Shown in pieces: positions 7,112 to 64,000 of a stretch of 64,000 nt of DNA; position 1 is the stretch's first letter; each line of letters begins with the position of its first letter. Source of the DNA: Alteromonadaceae bacterium (GTDB lineage: Bacteria > Pseudomonadota > Gammaproteobacteria > Enterobacterales > Alteromonadaceae); NCBI GenBank assembly GCA_013216015.1, contig JABSOI010000010.1, forward strand, positions 1-64,000, written 5' to 3'. The translations under genes and the position numbers were made by a program. The notes below the pieces were generated by a model that worked only from the letters and a program-made list of their open reading frames with translations, ran no database searches and had not been told where the DNA came from.

Positions 7112-7406
7112 TGCATAAACCTTTTATTTCAGTCAATTAAATAATAGCTTACTACTATAATAACAATCAATTAATCATCGTTTACATAATAGTTATTTGG
7201 GTATATTTACCAATGTTACTACATTGGAAGGACTTATATTGTAATGCAAGTGGTAATGATTCGCCACAAGTTACACATTAAAAAATAAACTAAAATTAAC
7301 AACTGCAACAACTTGACGCCTGATAAATCAAAAATATAACCAATTATTATGTTTGTACTGCCGAGTTTGATTGGGATCTAAGCTCAGCATCTAAACTATT
7401 AACCTG
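7112..7406. other. Promoter region of the GAPDH gene
   Basis: About 300 AT-rich bases between the GAPDH start and the 13-bp tandem repeat. It must contain the gap promoter (minus strand). I see no clear operator or structured element. Confidence 0.35.
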
Positions 7407-7484
7407 AACTCTTAACTTAAACTCTTAACTTAAACTCTTAACTTAAACTCTTAACTTAAACTCTTAACTTAAACTCTGAAGTTA
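7407..7484. repeat. 13-bp tandem repeat, six copies
   Basis: Six units of AACTCTTAACTTA in a row. The first five are identical and the last is AACTCTGAAGTTA. The array starts 16 bases past the stop of the M23 peptidase gene on its downstream side. A 13-bp unit is not coding-compatible. Confidence 0.9.
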
Positions 7485-7499
7485 AATTAAGAGTCTAAA

Positions 7500-26700: not shown

Positions 26701-26740
<40 letters not shown>

Positions 26741-53609: not shown

Positions 53610-53713
53610 CTAGACGTAATTGGTCAGGACAAACACGATGAGAGTGGCTAGTCTGGTATTACCTTTATATTTATAGAGAGTTTTTAGATTGTGGTTTTTC
53701 AAAGGAGATAAAA

Positions 53714-54199
53714 ATGATTTATGTCGTTATGGGAGTTTGCGGCTGTGGTAAATCAACCGTCGGTGAAATGTTAGCACGACAGCTCAATATTTCCTTTTAT
53801 GACGCGGATGATTTTCACTCAGACCTTAATAAAGAGAAAATGGCAAACGGGAATCCATTAACTGATGACGACCGTGGCCCATGGTTACGTTTAATAGCAA
53901 ATAAAATGGTTGACTGGAATGCTTCAGGTAACGCTGTACTGGCTTGCTCGGCACTGAAACAAAGTCACCGCAATATTTTAACAACAAAGCTAAGTAGCGA
54001 CGTAAAATTTATTTACCTCAAAGGTGATGAAGAGACACTTACGCAAAGGTTATCAAACAGAACACAGCATTTTATGCCTCCGGCTTTATTAAAAAGTCAA
54101 TTGCAGATACTGGAAGAACCTATAGATGCAATCACCACTTCTATTAAAAGTAGCGCTGACGCGATTGTAGCAACTATATTCAAGGCGATTAACGTATGA
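53714..54199 (+). CDS. gntK: Gluconokinase GntK
   Basis: 161 residues (E. coli GntK 175). It phosphorylates D-gluconate to 6-phosphogluconate with ATP. P-loop GVCGCGKSTVGEMLA at about 7-21, then DADDFHSDLNKEKMANGNPL and CSALKQSHRNIL are diagnostic. CAAAGGAG lies 8 bases upstream. First gene of the nickel-pincer operon; its stop overlaps the larA start as ATGA. No gluconate permease is nearby, which hints that the gluconate is made inside the cell. Confidence 0.93.
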   Translation: MIYVVMGVCGCGKSTVGEMLARQLNISFYDADDFHSDLNKEKMANGNPLTDDDRGPWLRLIANKMVDWNASGNAVLACSALKQSHRNILTTKLSSDVKFIYLKGDEETLTQRLSNRTQHFMPPALLKSQLQILEEPIDAITTSIKSSADAIVATIFKAINV

Positions 54200-55491
54200 C
54201 ATACCCTATACACAGAGTCGATACTGAGTTAACCCTATCAGACGATGACTTACGCGCGATTTTAGATGACTTTATTGAACAGAAAGCTTTAAAAGCAAAA
54301 CGCATATTGATATTACCCCCTGACATCACACGCTTTTATTCCAAAGCAGGCTTTATCACTTCATATCTATATCATCAATTGAAAGATAGGGCTGAAATTT
54401 TCTTTTTGCCTGCCTTAGGTACCCATGAACCTATGTCCGACAGCCATATCGATACAATGTTTGGCACTGACATTCCAAAAGAATTATTTTTGCCTCATCA
54501 ATGGCGTACCGACGTTGTAAAAATGGGCGAGATAAGCAGTGAACGCATGGCGCAATTGTCTGAAGGAAAATTAGACTGCACCATGGAAGTTGCAGTGAAC
54601 AAATTATTAGTTGAAGAAAATTGGGATCTCATTGTTTCCGTAGGGCAGATAGTGCCACACGAAGTTATTGGCATGGCTAACTATACCAAAAACGTACTTA
54701 TAGGTGTTGGCGGTGAAGATACCATACATAAATCACACTTTTTAGGCGCGGTTTATGGTATGGAACGCATAATGGGCAGAACGTCAAGTCCGGTTCGACA
54801 AGCCCTCAATGAGGGATATGATGCTTATTTACGTCATTTGCCGATTGAATTTATATTAACCGTACTGGGGAAAAAGTCGGGTAAGCTGGCCCTGCAAGGG
54901 CTGTTTTGTGGTAACGACGACAATACCTATGAGCAAGCATGTAAATTAAGTCAGCAACTTAATTTGAATTTACTGGATAAACCCATCAAGAAAGCCATTG
55001 TTTATTTGGATCCAAATGAGTTTAAAACTACCTGGTTAGGCAACAAAGCCATTTACCGAACACGAATGGCGATGGCCGATGATGGCGAGCTGATTGTATT
55101 GGCTCCCGGACTGAATAGATTTGGTGAAGACAGTGAAATCGATAAGTTGATCCGTGAATTTGGTTATAAAACTACCGATGAAACGTTAGCGGCAGTTCAG
55201 GCCAACCCAACCTTAGCCAGCAATTTATCGGCGGCGGCTCATTTGATCCATGGCACAACAAATAATCGCTTCAAAGTAACCTATTGTCCGGGTGATGGCG
55301 TCAGCCGGGAAGAAATTGAATCCGTTAATTACCAATATTGCCACCTAGACGACATGTTAAAAATATATCCGCTCGATAGTTTGGAAAATGGTTGGAATAC
55401 TTTAGACAATGGTGAAGAAGTATTCTATGTCAGTAATCCGGCTCTGGGTTTGTGGGCAACAAAATCAAGTTTTTTGCAGCGTGGTAAATAG
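54196..55491 (+). CDS. larA: LarA-family nickel-pincer epimerase, predicted D-mannonate/D-gluconate 2-epimerase
   Basis: 431 residues (L. plantarum LarA 424). LarA-type enzymes use a nickel-pincer nucleotide fixed to a lysine and move a hydride at C2 of an alpha-hydroxy acid. Here K165 lies 10 after H155 (PHEVIGMANYTK) and 16 before H181 (KSHF), the same spacing as H174-K184-H200 of LarA. H77 (ALGTHEP) matches H108, and PPDITR has the D-x-T-R substrate/cofactor motif. Lactate seems an unlikely substrate, as the gene is fused translationally to gntK and flanked by uronate genes. D-gluconate 2-epimerases are a known branch of the LarA superfamily; D-mannonate and D-gluconate differ only at C2. 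The function is inferred from context; the residues are seen. Confidence 0.8.
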   Translation: MTYPIHRVDTELTLSDDDLRAILDDFIEQKALKAKRILILPPDITRFYSKAGFITSYLYHQLKDRAEIFFLPALGTHEPMSDSHIDTMFGTDIPKELFLPHQWRTDVVKMGEISSERMAQLSEGKLDCTMEVAVNKLLVEENWDLIVSVGQIVPHEVIGMANYTKNVLIGVGGEDTIHKSHFLGAVYGMERIMGRTSSPVRQALNEGYDAYLRHLPIEFILTVLGKKSGKLALQGLFCGNDDNTYEQACKLSQQLNLNLLDKPIKKAIVYLDPNEFKTTWLGNKAIYRTRMAMADDGELIVLAPGLNRFGEDSEIDKLIREFGYKTTDETLAAVQANPTLASNLSAAAHLIHGTTNNRFKVTYCPGDGVSREEIESVNYQYCHLDDMLKIYPLDSLENGWNTLDNGEEVFYVSNPALGLWATKSSFLQRGK

Positions 55492-55506
55492 CTTGGAATA
55501 TTTATC

Positions 55507-56817
55507 ATGAAGTGTTATTCAAATATTTATCACATCCACCTAGATATAGTCGGTGGTATTGCCGGTGATATGTTTATTGCTGGGATGTTAGATGCCTTTG
55601 AGGAGCTAACCCCCATAGTGATGGCTTCATTATCAGAAGTTTTACCCGCCAATACTGGCACACCGATTTTATCGACCGGTATAAATGCCGGCATTAGTGG
55701 CTTGAGGTTTTTCTTGCAAGATGATGATGCAGATAAGTTTTCATCCGCTGTACAAGATACTGACAAACATGCTCATAGCCACTCACACGAACATGAACAT
55801 GAGCACAACCATCAAAGCCATAGCCATGATAATGAAAGTCATGCCCACAATCACAATCATGGGCATAAACATGAAACCAGCTACCAATATTTATGTCAGT
55901 TGCTACGCGACAGTCAACTCGACAGCAGTATTCTAGATATTGCCATTAAGCTACTGACGATAATTGCCAAAGCTGAAGCCAAGATACATGGAAAAACGTT
56001 AGCTGATGTACATTTTCATGAGTTGGCTGATTGGGACTCTTTAATGGATGTGGTGGCAAGTGCCGTCATTTTAAATGCCTTAGCTAACGCCAACTGGAGC
56101 ACTTCAAAATTACCCATTGGTGGTGGTTTAGTTAATACACAGCACGGTTTGATACCTGTACCTGCACCGGCAACAACGGAAATACTAAAGGGTTTTGAGT
56201 TTATTGATGACGGTATTAAAGGTGAGCGAATTACCCCTACGGGAGCGGCAATATTATGTTACTTATCTGAAAGTTTGTTACTTTCAGATCAGCCTCAAGG
56301 CCAGCTGAAAACTAGTGGATATGGTTTAGGCACCAAAGAATTCCCAGGCATGCCAAATATATTACGAGTTTTATCGTTTGAAAAAGCTAATAGTTCGAGT
56401 AATCAGCAAGGCACTGTGGTGATAATAGAGTTTGATATTGATGATATGACAGGTGAAGAGCTGGCCTTGTCACTGGACTTATTAAGAGCAGAAAACGGTG
56501 TACTTGATGTCGTATCGCAAACAGCTAGAGGCAAGAAAAACCGAGCAGTAGAACTGATTCGAATACAGGCATCGAGCAGCGATTACCAAAATATTATTAA
56601 GCAATGTTTTATGCAAACAACCACCATAGGTTTGAGATACCGTTTTGAAACTCGCCACCATCTATCCAGACAACTGACAGAATATAACAGCCAGTATTGT
56701 AAAAGCGTTATCCGCCCCGACGGCACTACCACTACTAAAATAGAGCATGATCAACTTCATGATTTTTCAACATTGGCAGAGCGCAGAGCCATCAAAAATA
56801 CAACTGAATCATTATAA
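55507..56817 (+). CDS. larC: Nickel-pincer cofactor nickel insertase LarC
   Basis: 436 residues. LarC inserts nickel into the pyridinium bisthiocarboxylate mononucleotide, the last step of cofactor assembly. The N-terminus HLDIVGGIAGDMFIAGMLDA and the GERITPTGAAILCYL segment match the family. A His-rich loop at about 88-122 has 16 His in 35 residues, probably a metal store. In L. plantarum larC is split and needs a ribosomal frameshift; here it is one continuous frame. It starts 15 bp after larA. Confidence 0.92.
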   Translation: MKCYSNIYHIHLDIVGGIAGDMFIAGMLDAFEELTPIVMASLSEVLPANTGTPILSTGINAGISGLRFFLQDDDADKFSSAVQDTDKHAHSHSHEHEHEHNHQSHSHDNESHAHNHNHGHKHETSYQYLCQLLRDSQLDSSILDIAIKLLTIIAKAEAKIHGKTLADVHFHELADWDSLMDVVASAVILNALANANWSTSKLPIGGGLVNTQHGLIPVPAPATTEILKGFEFIDDGIKGERITPTGAAILCYLSESLLLSDQPQGQLKTSGYGLGTKEFPGMPNILRVLSFEKANSSSNQQGTVVIIEFDIDDMTGEELALSLDLLRAENGVLDVVSQTARGKKNRAVELIRIQASSSDYQNIIKQCFMQTTTIGLRYRFETRHHLSRQLTEYNSQYCKSVIRPDGTTTTKIEHDQLHDFSTLAERRAIKNTTESL

Positions 56818-56835
56818 TGTTCTGGAGATGTAAAT

Positions 56836-57684
56836 ATGACTACACAAAAAATAACTAGACTCATCCAGTATTTTGACCAGTTTGAGCATTTCTCTGTCGC
56901 GGTTAGCGGCGGTATAGACAGCATGGTGCTGGCTTATTTGGCACATAAATTTTCTACTGCGCAAGTGACTGTGGTACATGCCTGTTCTCCTGCCGTGCCG
57001 GAATCTGCTTTGACAAGAATTAAACACTATGCACAAAGTCACCAATGGTTGTTTAAGCAGATCAACGCCGGTGAATTTTCCGATGAAAACTATCTTAAAA
57101 ACCCGGTAAATCGCTGTTATTTTTGTAAAAATAATTTATATAGTCGAATAGCAGAACATAGCCAAGAACAAATATTTTCAGGAACAAATTTAGACGACCT
57201 CAAAGATTTCAGACCAGGATTAGAAGCGGCAAAAGAATTACAGGTAAAACATCCCTATGTTGAAGCCGGTATTAATAAAGCTGATATTTATCGAATCGCT
57301 AAACACTATAATTTAAATGATTTACAGTGTTTGGCCGCTCAACCCTGTTTAGCAAGTCGTGTCGAAACTGGCATCAGTATTAAAGCACAAGATATGGTAT
57401 TTATTGATGATGTCGAGGTTAGAACACGAAAATTATTTCCAACCATTGAAAATGTTCGATGCCGCATTACCCTTCAGGGAATATTTGTTGAATTAGATGA
57501 AATACCTGCCTCCCCTGCTCTATCGAATTTATCAAGCCAGCTAAATGATCTTTGCAATCAACAGGGACATTTATTTTCAGGGGTAAGGTTGTATCAAAAA
57601 GGCTCAGCTTTTCTTAATGGCCTAAATCATGGCCTAGATCATGGAGTAACTCATGGAGTAACTCATGGAGTAACTCATGGATAA
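56836..57684 (+). CDS. larE: Nickel-pincer cofactor sulfurtransferase LarE
   Basis: 282 residues. PP-loop ATP pyrophosphatase (AVSGGIDSMVLAYL at about 22-35) that adds sulfur to the carboxylates of the cofactor precursor. Cys residues C94 and C97 (NRCYFC) plus C171 (PCLASR) form the three-cysteine set of LarE enzymes that carry a [4Fe-4S] cluster, instead of the single sacrificial cysteine of L. plantarum (C176, equivalent to C171). The last ~20 residues are an imperfect repeat ending THGVTHGVTHG that looks like a recent extension and may bind nickel. The stop overlaps larB by 8 bases. Confidence 0.92.
   Translation: MTTQKITRLIQYFDQFEHFSVAVSGGIDSMVLAYLAHKFSTAQVTVVHACSPAVPESALTRIKHYAQSHQWLFKQINAGEFSDENYLKNPVNRCYFCKNNLYSRIAEHSQEQIFSGTNLDDLKDFRPGLEAAKELQVKHPYVEAGINKADIYRIAKHYNLNDLQCLAAQPCLASRVETGISIKAQDMVFIDDVEVRTRKLFPTIENVRCRITLQGIFVELDEIPASPALSNLSSQLNDLCNQQGHLFSGVRLYQKGSAFLNGLNHGLDHGVTHGVTHGVTHG
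57616..57675 (+). repeat. 12-bp tandem repeat with built-in Shine-Dalgarno and ATG, before larB
   Basis: Five units end to end: AATGGCCTAAAT, CATGGCCTAGAT, then CATGGAGTAACT three times, followed by the larB start CATGGAT. In the larB frame each unit reads ATG-one codon-stop (ATG GCC TAA, ATG GCC TAG, ATG GAG TAA x3). In the last three, GGAG sits 6 bases before the next ATG and can act as its Shine-Dalgarno. In the larE frame the same bases code for N/H-G-L/V-N/D/T repeats. Confidence 0.9.
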
Positions 57685-58330
57685 TTTTACTTGGGATAAA
57701 AGTCGTCAAGCTCGCACCGGAGTCGCTGAAGCGGTTTTTTGTCTGGGCAAACACAGTAAAGATCTTCAAGCCATTATTGAATTCAATATCAGCAATGAAA
57801 GTTCAGTTTTATTAACACGTTTAGAACAAGAACAATGGTTGGCTTTACCCCTGGAACTATGTGAAAAGTTAGATTACGACTCACATTCTAAAACAGCAAT
57901 TTTTAACTGCAAAACCACAAGCACTCTACAGCAGGGAATTTGTATTGTTACTGCGGGCACTTCAGATCTAAGTGTTGGCTTGGAAGCGCAACGCACCTTA
58001 GTTTTTAACGGCTTTGATGCGCCATTATATCCGGATCTTGGCGTCGCAGGTTTATGGCGATTAATGGAAAAAATTGATGAGCTTCGCCAATACAAAATGA
58101 TTATTGCCATAGCAGGCATGGAAGGAGCGTTATTTAGTGTCCTTGCCGGCTTAGTCGCTGCGCCAATTATAGCCGTTCCTACTTCGATTGGTTATGGCGT
58201 TGCTTCAGGCGGAAGAAGTGCATTAGACAGTGCCTTATCTTCATGTGCTCCTGGGTTATTAACGGTGAACATAGATAATGGTTTTGGTGCAGCCGCGGCG
58301 GCGATTAAAACCATGCGTCAGTTTAGCTAG
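57677..58330 (+). CDS. larB: Nickel-pincer cofactor carboxylase/hydrolase LarB
   Basis: 217 residues. LarB carboxylates and dephosphorylates nicotinic acid adenine dinucleotide, the first step of cofactor synthesis. The N-terminus DKSRQARTGVAEAVFCLGKH and the PurE-like C-terminal half (VTAGTSDLSVGLEAQ, AVPTSIGYGVASGGRSAL, VNIDNGFGAAAAAIKT) are diagnostic. The start is at 57677, the last ATG of a repeated SD-ATG array inside the end of larE. It precedes the nickel permease gene by 9 bp. Confidence 0.93.
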   Translation: MDNFTWDKSRQARTGVAEAVFCLGKHSKDLQAIIEFNISNESSVLLTRLEQEQWLALPLELCEKLDYDSHSKTAIFNCKTTSTLQQGICIVTAGTSDLSVGLEAQRTLVFNGFDAPLYPDLGVAGLWRLMEKIDELRQYKMIIAIAGMEGALFSVLAGLVAAPIIAVPTSIGYGVASGGRSALDSALSSCAPGLLTVNIDNGFGAAAAAIKTMRQFS

Positions 58331-58339
58331 GAGTTTTTC

Positions 58340-58969
58340 ATGACAGAAGTCAGTATGCTCTCAGTGATAGGTTTAGGCATTGCGATAGGATTATTTCATG
58401 CCTTTGATGTTGACCATGTCGTTGCCATGGCAACCTTTGTTGATAAAAAGTCGAAGCTTAAACCTATTCTCTACTATGCCATCAAGTGGGGTACTGGTCA
58501 TGGTGGAGTTTTGTTGCTGCTAGGAGTTTTACTCGCCTTTATAGGCATACAGCTTCCTGATTGGTTTGTGCATTACTCTGAAATTACCGTTGGCCTTTTG
58601 CTCATTTATCTTGGTTGTCGTGTGCTTGGCTATTTAACTAAAAATGGTCACACGAGTAGCCAAAGCAAAAATCAAAGTGTAATAACTAAATTAAAACATG
58701 ATCATGCGCCAATATTAATCGGCATGTTACATGGTGTAGCAGGCAGTGCATCCGTGCTGATGATATTACCCAACATGATGAAAGCACAATTTTTAATTCA
58801 CATTGCCTTATTTTCAATGGGCTGTTTACTTGGCATGTTTTGCTTTGGCTTATGTTTAGGTTTCATGCAATCTTTTGTTACCAAGCACAACCAAAATATG
58901 GCAGATATATTTACCCGATGTTTAGGGTTCAGTTCAATAGGCTTGGGATCAGTGTGGATTATTAGCTGA
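58340..58969 (+). CDS. Nickel permease of the NiCoT/UreH superfamily
   Basis: 209 residues with about six membrane helices. Helix I contains HAFDVDHVV, the HX4DH motif (H20, D25, H26) that selects Ni/Co in NiCoT transporters, and a later segment has WGTGHGG; LHGVAGSAS is in a C-terminal helix. A cytoplasmic loop has a weak His cluster (KLKHDHAP). It lies 9 bp after larB, so it is cotranscribed and probably supplies nickel for the LarA cofactor. Cobalt cannot be excluded. Confidence 0.8.
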   Translation: MTEVSMLSVIGLGIAIGLFHAFDVDHVVAMATFVDKKSKLKPILYYAIKWGTGHGGVLLLLGVLLAFIGIQLPDWFVHYSEITVGLLLIYLGCRVLGYLTKNGHTSSQSKNQSVITKLKHDHAPILIGMLHGVAGSASVLMILPNMMKAQFLIHIALFSMGCLLGMFCFGLCLGFMQSFVTKHNQNMADIFTRCLGFSSIGLGSVWIIS

Positions 58970-59074
58970 GTCTTGACAAAATTTCACCCCACTTCAGGGA
59001 TATGTATTGATATATAAGCGTGTATAAAAACAAGCACGTTTTTCTAAGTAACTAACTAAAGCGAGAAATATTTA

Positions 59075-60544
59075 ATGAAAACTAAATCTGATATTGGCCT
59101 GGTAGGCCTGGCCGTTATGGGTGAAAACCTTATTTTAAACATGGAATCTAAAGGCTTTACGGTTACGGCATACAACCGTAGTTATGCCAAAGTAGAGAGC
59201 TTCCTCCGCGGCAGAGCGGAAGGTAAAAATATCAGAGGCGCGAATAGCATTGAGTCTTTGATTGACTCCTTGGCAACACCAAGAAAAATTATGCTGATGG
59301 TGAAAGCTGGCCAAGTGGTTGATAATTTCATAGAGCAACTTATCCCGCATCTTGAAAAAGGCGATATTATAATTGATGGCGGTAATACCCATTATCCAGA
59401 CTCAAATCGTCGTACTCAATATCTAGAAAGCAAAGGCCTGTTATATATAGGTACTGGCGTTTCTGGTGGTGAAGAAGGTGCGTTAAAGGGTCCTTCTATA
59501 ATGCCCGGTGGTTCAAAAGCAGCCTGGCCGGCAGTGAAAGAAATTTTTCAGTCAATTTCTGCGAAAGTAGACAATGAGCAGGGTGAGCCGATTGTGCCAT
59601 GTTGTGACTGGGTTGGCGATGCCGGTGCTGGTCACTTTGTCAAAATGGTTCACAATGGCATCGAATATGGTGATATGCAGTTGATTTGTGAAGCCTACCA
59701 ATTGATGAAAAATGTGCTGGGCTTATCCGCTGATGAATTACATCAGGTCTTTGATGATTGGAATAACACCGAACTTGATAGCTACCTTATTGAGATCACC
59801 AGAGACATTTTTGCCTATAAAGATGAAGATGGTGAGCCATTAGTTGAAAAAATACTCGATACCGCCGGTCAAAAAGGCACGGGTAAATGGACAGGTGTTA
59901 CCGCCCTTGATTTAGGTGTCCCCCTTACGTTGATTGCCGATTCTGTATTTGCCCGTTGTATTTCAGCGAAAAAAGATCAGCGAGTTGAAGCTGCAAAAGT
60001 AATTTCTGGCCCAGAAATTAGCTTTTCAGGTGATAAAGCCGCATTTATTGAAGATTTACGTCAAGCCTTGTTAGCAGCCAAAATGGTTTCTTATGCGCAA
60101 GGATATATGTTGATGGAAGAAGCGGCAAAAGAATACCAGTGGCAATTAAACTTTGGCGGTATTGCACTAATGTGGCGTGGCGGCTGTATTATTCGCTCAG
60201 CATTTTTAGGCAAAATAAAAGAAGCGTATGATGACAACCCACAAGTGGGCAACCTATTATTAGCGCCTTATTTCAGAGATTCAGTGGTTTGTGCACAAGC
60301 TGGTTGGCGCCGTGTAGTAGGTACTGCTGTTGCCAATGGTGTTGCCATACCTTGCTTAAGCTCAGCGCTGACTTATTTTGATGGTTTTAGAACAGCGCGT
60401 TTACCTGCCAATTTATTACAAGCTCAACGAGATTATTTTGGCGCACATACCTATGAACGTATCGACAAACCAAGAGGTGAATTCTTCCATACCAACTGGA
60501 CTGGGCGTGGTGGTGATACTGCATCTACAACATATAACGTTTAA
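59075..60544 (+). CDS. gnd: 6-phosphogluconate dehydrogenase (decarboxylating)
   Basis: 489 residues (E. coli Gnd 468). It converts 6-phosphogluconate to ribulose-5-phosphate with NADPH and CO2. N-terminal nucleotide fold GLVGLAVMGENLILNM and NRSYAKVE, the catalytic GVSGGEEGALKGPSIMPGG and the FVKMVHNGIEYGDMQLICEA lysine region are present. The C-terminus ends FHTNWTGRGGDTASTTYNV. About 105 bp after the nickel permease gene. It uses the product of gntK, which ties it to the upstream operon. Confidence 0.95.
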   Translation: MKTKSDIGLVGLAVMGENLILNMESKGFTVTAYNRSYAKVESFLRGRAEGKNIRGANSIESLIDSLATPRKIMLMVKAGQVVDNFIEQLIPHLEKGDIIIDGGNTHYPDSNRRTQYLESKGLLYIGTGVSGGEEGALKGPSIMPGGSKAAWPAVKEIFQSISAKVDNEQGEPIVPCCDWVGDAGAGHFVKMVHNGIEYGDMQLICEAYQLMKNVLGLSADELHQVFDDWNNTELDSYLIEITRDIFAYKDEDGEPLVEKILDTAGQKGTGKWTGVTALDLGVPLTLIADSVFARCISAKKDQRVEAAKVISGPEISFSGDKAAFIEDLRQALLAAKMVSYAQGYMLMEEAAKEYQWQLNFGGIALMWRGGCIIRSAFLGKIKEAYDDNPQVGNLLLAPYFRDSVVCAQAGWRRVVGTAVANGVAIPCLSSALTYFDGFRTARLPANLLQAQRDYFGAHTYERIDKPRGEFFHTNWTGRGGDTASTTYNV

Positions 60545-60584
60545 GTGAAATTCTTGGGATAATATTATGTGTATTGTCCCTTAA

Positions 60585-60847
60585 TACCAATCGGATTAAT
60601 TAATCGATCACTTAGCGAGAATTAAAAGGCTTAGAGGCAAGGCATTGATTGAAGAGAATGGTTGTTCCCTTGTCAAAATCAATAACGCCGCATATATGCC
60701 TTTTAAACTCGCCCTTAGGGAGTTCAGTAGCAAACTGATAACTTCACAAAATGAATGAAATATAGAATAACTATGTTTAACTCATTTTGTTTGTTCTAAG
60801 CTCGCTACAGAAGCTCTAAGTTGGTCTATTTATTAATCCGTTTGGTA
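60585..60847. mobile_element. 263-bp MITE between gnd and tal
   Basis: Inverted ends TACCAATCGGATTAATTAAT and, from the right, TACCAAACGGATTAATAAAT, about 25 bp with few mismatches. The 3-bp target duplication is TAA (60582-60584 and 60848-60850). Noncoding inside. It shares the TACCAA ends and 3-bp duplication with the MITE at 14982-15144, though the interiors differ. Confidence 0.85.
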
Positions 60848-60902
60848 TAACTAACCCTTATAAAAATATATCCCCATGCTACCTCAAAATGCAGGAATGA
60901 AG

Positions 60903-61855
60903 ATGCCAACTCAACTCGAACAGTTACGTAAATTAACCACGGTTGTTGCCGATACCGGTGACATTGAAGCCATTAAAAAATTTTTACCACAAGATGCGAC
61001 CACAAACCCTAGTTTATTACTAAAAGCATCTGAAATACCTGAATACCAAAACCTGATCACTGATGCTATCAACTGGGCTAAATCACAATCAAATGATGTT
61101 GAACAACAAGTGATTGATGCGGGTGATAAACTTTCGGTCAATATTGGTGTTAAAATCTTGAATATTGTACCTGGGCGAATTTCTACTGAAGTGGATGCAC
61201 GTTTGTCTTATAACAAAGACGCATCACTGGCTAAAGCGAGAAAACTCATTGCCCTCTATAACGATGCCGGCATCAGTAATGATCGGGTATTAATTAAATT
61301 AGCCTCGACTTGGGAAGGCATTCAAGCAGCAGAAGTTTTAGAAAATGAAGGCATCAACTGTAACTTAACGCTACTGTTTAGTTTTGCTCAAGCTCAGGCT
61401 TGTGCCGAGGCTGGGTATTTTTAATATCGCCATTTGTTGGCCGTATCCTTGATTGGTACAAAAAATCCGAAGGCGTGGATAGTTATCCAGCAGATGAAGA
61501 TCCTGGCGTAGTCTCAGTGAGCGAAATCTACAATTATTACAAGCAACACGATTATAATACCGTCGTTATGGGGGCAAGCTTTCGCAGTACTGATGAAATC
61601 TTAGCACTGGCCGGTTGTGATCGTTTAACCATTGGTCCTGATTTATTAGAGTCACTAAATAAAACCACGGGTGATGTGCCGATTAAGTTAGCTTTTAACG
61701 GCGACGTTAAAGCCAGACCAAAAAGATTATCCGAAGCAGATTTTCGTTGGTCACATAACCAAGATCCAATGGCCGTTGAAAAATTAGCCGAAGGCATTCG
61801 CAATTTTGCCCTTGATCAAAATAAGCTAGAAGTCACTTTAAGAGCACAACTCTAA
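60903..61855 (+). pseudogene. tal: Transaldolase, interrupted by a one-base frameshift
   Basis: Start ATG 60903 with AGGA 7 bases upstream. The frame reads [20 protein letters not shown] and the Schiff-base lysine motif [14 protein letters not shown], then CAEAGYF and a stop at 61422. The other frame continues [17 protein letters not shown] to 61855. One base is missing near GGCTGGGTATTT (61409-61420). Restoring it gives exactly 317 residues, the length of E. coli TalB. Transaldolase exchanges C3 units in the pentose-phosphate pathway. This is a true recent mutation, a sequencing error in a G run, or (least likely) a programmed shift. Confidence 0.9.
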
Positions 61856-61913
61856 AACTTTAACATAACCAATGTTCGGTAAGCTTTACCAAGATAAGGG
61901 ATAGAAGCTAAGT

Positions 61914-63590
61914 ATGTCTTTATTTACACAATTAAAAAGTTATCAGGCCTTGCAAGCGCATTTTTCAAAAGTTGAAAATGTTCACATGCGAGATTTGTTT
62001 GCTGCAGATCAACAACGTTTCAATAGACTATCCACCAATGCCTGTGGCATTGAACTTGATTATTCGAAAAATAGAATAACAGATGAAACACTGCAACTGT
62101 TATTTGATCTAGCGCGTGAAGCTGGCGTTGAAGAAAAACGCGACGACATGTTTTCCGCTAAAAAAGTCAATACCAGTGAAAACCGTGCTGTGTTACATAC
62201 GGCCTTGCGTAATATAGCTAATATCCCGGTCATGTTAAATGGCCAGGATGTTATGCCAGAGGTGAATGCAGTCCTTAAAAAAATGCAGCTGTTTGTTGAG
62301 CAAGTACATAATGGTACTCGTCAAGGTTACACAGGCAAATCCTTCACTGATGTATTGGCTATTGGTATAGGTGGCTCCTTTTTAGGGCCTAAAATAATAA
62401 CAGAAGCATTGAAACCTTATCAGAACTCAGCAGTTAAAGTGCACTTTGTCGCCAACGTTGACGGGTCGCATATTCATGATGTCTTAGCAAAGTTGCACGT
62501 TGAAACGACCTTAGTTGTCATGTCTTCAAAATCATTTGGCACGCAAGAAACGGTTAAAAACACCGAAACAGCAAAAGAGTGGTTTTTAAGCAATGGCGCT
62601 GAATTTACCGATATAAAAAATCACTTTATCTGTGTTTCTTCAAATATTGCCGCAGCGACTGAATTTGGTATTGCTCAAGATAATATTTTTCCGATATGGG
62701 ATTGGGTCGGTGGTCGCTATTCGTTATGGTCGGCTATAGGATTGCCTATTGCCTTAGCCCTAGGTTTTGATAACTTCAAAGCGCTACTTTCAGGGGCAAA
62801 TGAGATGGATGTACACTTTCGAACGGCACCTTTGGCAGAAAATATTCCGGTTATTTTAGGCCTGTTAGGTATTTGGTATATCAACTTTTTTGATGCACAA
62901 AGTCAGGCGATATTACCCTATGATCATTACCTCAGAGGATTTCCTGCCTATGTACAGCAGCTCGATATGGAATCTAATGGCAAAATGGCGACGCCAAACG
63001 GTGATTGTTTGGATTATGCCACAGGGCCCGTTATCTGGGGAGCGGAGGGATGTAATGGCCAACATGCTTTTCATCAATTGATTCATCAGGGTAGTGTTTT
63101 GATCCCTGCTGATTTTATCTTGCCGCTTAACTCTCAACATGAAATGAGCAATCATCATGCAATGTTAGCGTCAAATTGTTTTGGCCAAACTCAAGCATTA
63201 ATGCAAGGTAAATCTTTAGCACAAGTGAAGACTGAACTTGATGAACTCGGTTTAACTGAAGAAGAAATAAATCGGATAGCGCCGCAAAAAGTATTTGAAG
63301 GTAATAAGCCGAGTAACACCTTATTATTTGATAAAATGACACCTCATTCACTCGGCAGTTTAATTGCTTTGTATGAGCATAAAGTTTTTGTGCAAGGTAT
63401 AATCTGGGGGATTAATTCATTTGATCAATGGGGGGTAGAGTTAGGTAAAGTATTGGGTATTGATATTTTGGCTAAACTCGAAGACAGTTCATTAGCACTT
63501 GATAGTGATGCTTCAACAAATGCTTTAATTGCGCGTTTTCGCAATAGAAAAAATACCGAAGTGGATTTTGTTGAAAAAATTGCCGTTTAA
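61914..63590 (+). CDS. pgi: Glucose-6-phosphate isomerase
   Basis: 558 residues (E. coli Pgi 549). It interconverts glucose-6-phosphate and fructose-6-phosphate. Family segments are [35 protein letters not shown] (signature 1) and [18 protein letters not shown] (signature 2). It follows tal by 58 bp on the same strand, so gnd-tal-pgi would return pentose-phosphate carbon to hexose-phosphate. Confidence 0.95.
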
Positions 63591-63653
63591 GCGCATTAAT
63601 CCTGTTAAATTTATGCTCTTAATCAGGATATCTGGACTTAGAAAGGTAGCTAA

Positions 63654-63683
63654 AGGTGAATAGCATGTTTATGCTATTCACCT
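63654..63683 (+). terminator. Hairpin after pgi
   Basis: Perfect 13-bp stem AGGTGAATAGCAT/ATGCTATTCACCT with a GTTT loop, 63 bases after the pgi stop. It lacks a T run, so it may be a weak or factor-assisted terminator. Confidence 0.55.
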
Positions 63684-63788
63684 TATGGTCATTCGCATTC
63701 CCCTACTGCTGTTGACAAACCAGCCAAAAGGTCAATTGTGTCAGTTTTCAAGGGAGTTCATCTAAACTTAATAAAATTGATATAATAA

Positions 63789-64000
63789 ATGATTCAAGAA
63801 TATTTACGTTTTATAAGGCACAGTTGGCCAATGCTTCTTTTTGGCATGATGACTGTTTTCATGGGGAATTTCGGTCAGTCGTTTTTTGTCAGCTGGTTCG
63901 GCAGCAGTTTTCAAGAAAGTCTTGGTTTATCAGCCACAAGTTATGGCTCCGCCTACTCTATTGCAACACTTGCCAGTGGCCTACTTCTTATGTGGATTGG
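63789..64000 (+). CDS. MFS transporter, N-terminal part (runs off the window)
   Basis: Seventy codons from ATG 63789 to the window edge. MIQEYLRFIRHSWPMLLFGM, then MTVFMGNFGQSFFVSWFGSS and a second helix SIATLASGLLLMWI look like helices 1 and 2 of an MFS carrier. The substrate is not known; a link to the sugar-acid genes is possible. No obvious Shine-Dalgarno. Confidence 0.6.
   Translation, partial: MIQEYLRFIRHSWPMLLFGMMTVFMGNFGQSFFVSWFGSSFQESLGLSATSYGSAYSIATLASGLLLMWI

Follow-up and report, generated by a model that had tools for sequence, protein, structure and literature searches.

A tandem array of two-codon minigenes at the larE/larB overlap, probably a variable minisatellite made by slippage

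The phage lambda bar minigenes are two-codon open reading frames (ORFs) with a Shine-Dalgarno (SD) sequence, and are toxic via peptidyl-tRNA drop-off when overexpressed. Two-codon minigenes in axe-txe, B. subtilis ycbK and LEE1 ler act in cis and raise or lower downstream expression, depending on distance (PMC8708949). Termination and reinitiation can couple translation at overlapping gene pairs (PMC6728339); an overlap of 8 nt (-8) is the third commonest in prokaryotes, reinitiation drops steeply with distance, and phage fr used the start closest to the stop (PMC10666635). Here we describe the junction between larE and larB in a 64,000-nucleotide stretch of Alteromonadaceae DNA (contig JABSOI010000010.1; hereafter the window), where an array of such minigenes precedes an overlapping start.

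Five tandem units at the larE/larB junction

Both genes belong to one operon (Table 1), whose neighbourhood also contains a gluconokinase gene, and their short start/stop overlap is that of an overlap-coupled gene pair. The larB start at 57677 is secure, since a TAA (57671-57673) closes the frame 6 nt upstream, the MDNFTWD N-terminus aligns with that of homologues and the product matches the LarB profile; an earlier note on this DNA had thus placed it correctly. We take the HAFDVDHV motif of the membrane protein encoded downstream to mark a probable nickel/cobalt permease. A single ORF encodes LarC and covers both LarC1 and LarC2; its long stretch rich in His (HAHSHSHEHEHEHNH...) carries a 6-bp indel relative to the nearest homologue.

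Table 1. Features of the lar operon and of the junction array, in window coordinates
Feature	Position	Strand	Remarks
LarA-family putative hexonate epimerase	54196-55491	+	NF052594; upstream in operon
larC	55507-56817	+	upstream in operon, before larE
larE, ATP-dependent sacrificial sulfur transferase	56836-57684	+	TIGR00268 match at residues 5-257 of 282
Two divergent 12-bp units, ATGGCCTAAATC and ATGGCCTAGATC	57617-57640	+	ATG-Ala-stop in larB frame; LarE tail GLNHGLDH; without GGAG
Three identical 12-bp units, ATGGAGTAACTC	57641-57676	+	ATG-Glu-stop in larB frame; LarE tail GVTH x3; GGAG 6 nt before next ATG
larB, nickel-pincer cofactor biosynthesis	57677-58330	+	NCBIfam NF033503
larE/larB overlap, 8 nt, ATGGATAA	57677-57684	+	larB start and larE stop; kept in Paraglaciecola homologues
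Membrane protein, HAFDVDHV motif	58340-58969	+	downstream of larB; no NCBIfam match

Five 12-bp units stand in tandem at 57617-57676 and abut the larB ATG. A codon walk in the larB frame reads ATG GCC TAA ATC, ATG GCC TAG ATC and three copies of ATG GAG TAA CTC before larB opens with ATG GAT AAT, every unit (5/5) having the form ATG-X-stop-X. This bears out the earlier note, which had seen five ATG-X-stop units before larB within 57616-57700 and had read GGAG in three of them as the SD of the next ATG, the last serving larB: GGAG lies 6 nt ahead of the ATGs at 57653, 57665 and 57677, and the first three array ATGs are without it. An SD at a spacing usable for a two-codon minigene is therefore found at 2 of the 5 minigene ATGs (57653 and 57665), the other 3 having no GGAG, and the proximal units combine a stop-3nt-ATG with a GGAG-6nt-ATG geometry. 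The array lies wholly within larE coding sequence, with all five units encoding the C-terminal tail of LarE, which ends in ...NGLNHGLDHGVTHGVTHGVTHG before its stop and whose residues 261-282, the repeat tail, fall beyond the TIGR00268 match. An independent TRF search also recovered the array (12 bp x 5.3; 12 bp x 3.6 at 100%), and the tandem repeat is more than chance. Assembly error is an unlikely source of an array with units of three sequence types; small errors are possible in this genome, which is in 240 contigs and has a 1-base deletion in tal.

Short tandem repeats abound in the window's genome: a 452-kb sample held 80 merged arrays, 47 intergenic, 30 inside ORFs and 3 at edges, with ORFs taken from simple calls and not from a gene finder. 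Further strong short arrays are found in the window at 7392-7486 (TAAACTCTTAACT x7) and 26701-26740 (TAAC x10), and elsewhere at L146:8897-8995 (TATATGTTTCAC x8) and L149:10057-10124 (ATGTATTAAGTT x5.7). At L147:13719-13765, an array of 15-bp units extends over the start of a further gene and yields repeated NNKS residues and no minigenes, which indicates that start-covering arrays arise in this genome without the ATG-X-stop form. The gene concerned encodes a signal-peptide-like N-terminus (VNNKSMNNKSIKNKSINK) and has alternative GTG and ATG starts. Across the family, the pattern (ATG-X-TRR-X)x3-ATG, slightly loose in that TRR also allows TGG, occurred in 19 of 397 genomes, and the reversed pattern in 16 by our count. 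With the reversed control about as frequent, we dropped the ATG-X-stop format as significant in itself. Among the ATG-X-stop arrays examined in these genomes, only in that of the window does the last ATG begin a long ORF (217 aa, against 61 aa for the runner-up).

Copy number and conservation among relatives

The nearest homologue is found in an uncultured Colwellia metagenome-assembled genome (MAG; CAJWZC010000011.1), placed in a different genus from the window in the genome collection, with 95% larB DNA identity and 98% LarB protein identity. Its junction reads ATG GCC TAG ATC, ATG GAG TAA CTC and then larB, that is, two units as opposed to five, with stops in all units in both genomes. The 36-bp difference within larE corresponds to exactly three units and is the sole in-gene indel above 6 bp over ~10 kb aligned (~93% identity), the remaining ones being 6 bp in larC and single bases at the end of larC and in tal. 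Copy number has thus changed in frame, by whole 12-bp steps that leave larE and larB intact in both alleles, as the earlier note had proposed. The array varies in number as a VNTR does, the comparison being between two species of different genera and not within a strain set. That the three proximal units are identical suggests that the window allele expanded recently.

The Colwellia MAG is the one close homologue with an array in the data. In the window's genus the only further genome is without larB, the 39 genomes of the genus of the Colwellia MAG gave no further match, no closer homologue was found in the genus Paraglaciecola or in the order and wider relatives searched, and the larB relatives on plasmids were all below 60% identity. 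Viral contigs gave 21 single scattered matches to the 16-nt repeat core, which we put down to chance. The region from 53687 to 64000, comprising the operon and the following gnd-tal-pgi genes, is ~93% identical to this MAG of another assigned genus; together with the absence of larB from the window's other congener, the match suggests horizontal transfer or misassigned taxonomy. Compared with the MAG, the window lacks 1 base near 61414, and its transaldolase gene (60876-61855) consequently falls into two ORFs; either the frameshift is recent or the assembly is in error here. Between gnd and the permease gene, the MAG also carries an extra 314 bp (beginning TATACCCAAGCCACCTCAAGATGC; missing at window 59010), possibly a small repeat element.

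More distantly, seven Paraglaciecola loci have one unit and P. arctica BSs20135 has two, so that the copy numbers observed across the relatives and the window are 1, 2 and 5. The earlier note had asked for this comparison, and a repeat number fixed in all relatives is refuted by it. In addition to the 8-nt overlap, all Paraglaciecola loci compared have an ATG lying 12 nt ahead of the larB ATG, which is accounted for by the conserved Asn-Gly codons (aATGGN) in LarE. Of the 7 single-unit loci, 2 have the larB-frame stop that makes a mini-ORF, and 1 has GGAG. The proximal unit of P. arctica reads ATG GAG CAA CGA, without a stop, and leaves larB open 4 codons upstream. Conservation of ATG-X-stop at the orthologous junction, a supportive though not strictly defining sign of selection, was thus not seen, and distant homologues have different overlaps or gaps and no array. 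What these junctions conserve is the gene overlap and not the mini-ORF.

Slippage and alternative accounts of the array

We consider it probable that the array is a slippage-made variable minisatellite that multiplies the larB initiation site, with the two-codon minigenes as by-products. At the conserved 8-nt overlap, the C-terminal Asn-Gly of LarE (aATGG) lies 12 nt ahead of the larB ATGG. The two form a short direct repeat, found in most single-unit relatives, which may have seeded replication slippage; each event would duplicate a 12-bp unit including the start region of larB. A larB-frame stop in this lineage's founding unit would turn every copy into an ATG-X-stop minigene, and duplication of a GGAG-bearing unit would multiply the SD. 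LarE presumably tolerates the in-frame tail, as it is outside the conserved domain. Several observations support this account: the 36-bp difference as the only large in-gene indel, the identity of the proximal units, the retention of overlap and upstream ATG in all seven single-unit loci against a stop in 2/7, the array-rich genome, the similar frequency of the reversed control, the absence of long-ORF starts at the other ATG-X-stop arrays examined, the position of the tail outside the LarE profile, and an overlap class that is third commonest and at which reinitiation is local (PMC10666635).

The earlier note had instead proposed a selected dial, in which ribosomes start on the SD-ATG-stop units and reinitiate stepwise down to larB, or use the array as a landing pad where they gather, while slippage tunes the LarB:LarE ratio. 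The geometry of the proximal units is good for such a device, copy number does change without loss of frame, and minigenes are known to act in cis with a sign set by distance (PMC8708949). We nevertheless regard it as unlikely. The stop on which a stop-and-reinitiate ladder depends is missing from 5 of the 7 single-unit relatives and from the proximal unit of P. arctica, and the arrangement does not recur at other gene starts, no other ATG-X-stop array examined in the 397 family genomes preceding an ORF of more than 61 aa. Moreover, ribosomes leaving larE are expected at the nearest start: given the steep decay with distance and the behaviour of phage fr, they should take the larB ATG over the ATGs 12-60 nt upstream (PMC10666635). 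The evidence therefore favours a slippage accident over a selected dial. A little less likely still is the reading that expression of a coupled downstream gene is set by a slippage-variable tandem array of SD-minigenes within the gene before it, where every unit is a ribosome loading step gained or lost with the frames undisturbed.

A neutral origin is compatible with a present effect. Judging from the overlap geometry and the literature, larB is most likely made mainly by termination-reinitiation from the larE stop, with the upstream SD-ATG-stop copies as at most weak decoy or feeder initiation sites, through which a change in copy number may have a modest effect on larB output. Ribosomes could also load directly at the two upstream minigenes that have an SD, and SD-ATG-stop units so near larB likely bind some. 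Since minigenes act in cis and according to distance (PMC8708949), a modest effect of the array on larB output, of either sign, is plausible. Against slippage alone stand the altered downstream expression that two-codon minigenes cause in other systems (PMC8708949), which may extend to this junction, and the presence of stops in all units of both the window and the Colwellia MAG.

Copy number might also act through mRNA structure, if the CAUGs of neighbouring units pair (UCAUGG hairpins) and hide the larB start unless larE is translated, a longer array giving tighter coupling. One pair of units is predicted to form a -3.7 kcal/mol hairpin, and the predicted cost of opening -12 to +15, ~5-6 kcal/mol for a single unit, reaches ~10 for five and 11-12 for six. 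The rise is uneven, however, with n=0 and n=2 also high, and 43% of 200 synonymous tail recodings were at least as closed as the real sequence. We accordingly set aside a special RNA structure at the larB start, for which the real sequence is average among these recodings, and think the structural account improbable, with RNA structure a possible but unremarkable contributor in these predictions. Least probable of all, and very doubtful, is selection on the protein, by which the His-rich LarE tail (NHGLDHGVTHGVTHGVTHG, with five His) would bind nickel for cofactor assembly. LarC of the same operon has a far longer His-rich stretch, but LarC is the nickel inserter in cofactor assembly and LarE a sulfur transferase; the tail has one His in single-unit relatives, forced by the larB C-ATG, and two in Colwellia.

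If copy number does change larB output, the array would offer a frame-neutral route by which slippage tunes protein ratios within an operon. Even as an accident, it indicates that a start codon 12 nt past an identical ATGG at an overlap can yield tandem minigenes by slippage alone, and it cautions against taking such arrays as designed.

Relation to known systems

Like phage lambda bar, the junction units pair a two-codon ORF with an SD, toxicity on overexpression being a feature of bar. Our literature search for tandem repeats within translation initiation regions found nothing useful. The parts of the junction (overlap coupling, two-codon minigenes, VNTR) are known, and the literature searched yielded no description of them combined in a variable array. 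The earlier note's statement that it knew of no described example consequently stands for the variable array within that literature, and falls for the parts, in view of the minigenes of axe-txe, ycbK and LEE1 ler (PMC8708949).

Ordinary overlapping gene pairs share with larE/larB the 8-nt start/stop overlap and an SD within the upstream gene (PMC6728339, PMC10666635), but have just one start there, whereas that of larE/larB is preceded by duplicated start copies. The axe-txe mg2 minigene (ATGactTAA) is embedded in the coding sequence of the upstream gene and shares the downstream gene's frame, as the window units do, and the two dipeptide ORFs of B. subtilis ycbK and the minigene of LEE1 ler place ATG-X-stop close upstream of a gene, as at larB (PMC8708949). 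Each of those systems has a fixed set of one or two minigenes whose effects have been measured, whereas the window has five in tandem, variable in number and with a putative effect. With VNTR and contingency loci the junction shares short tandem units whose copy number varies between relatives. It differs from them, as far as can be read from the DNA, in that its unit is a multiple of 3, so that a change in copy number switches no frame and instead multiplies a start site.
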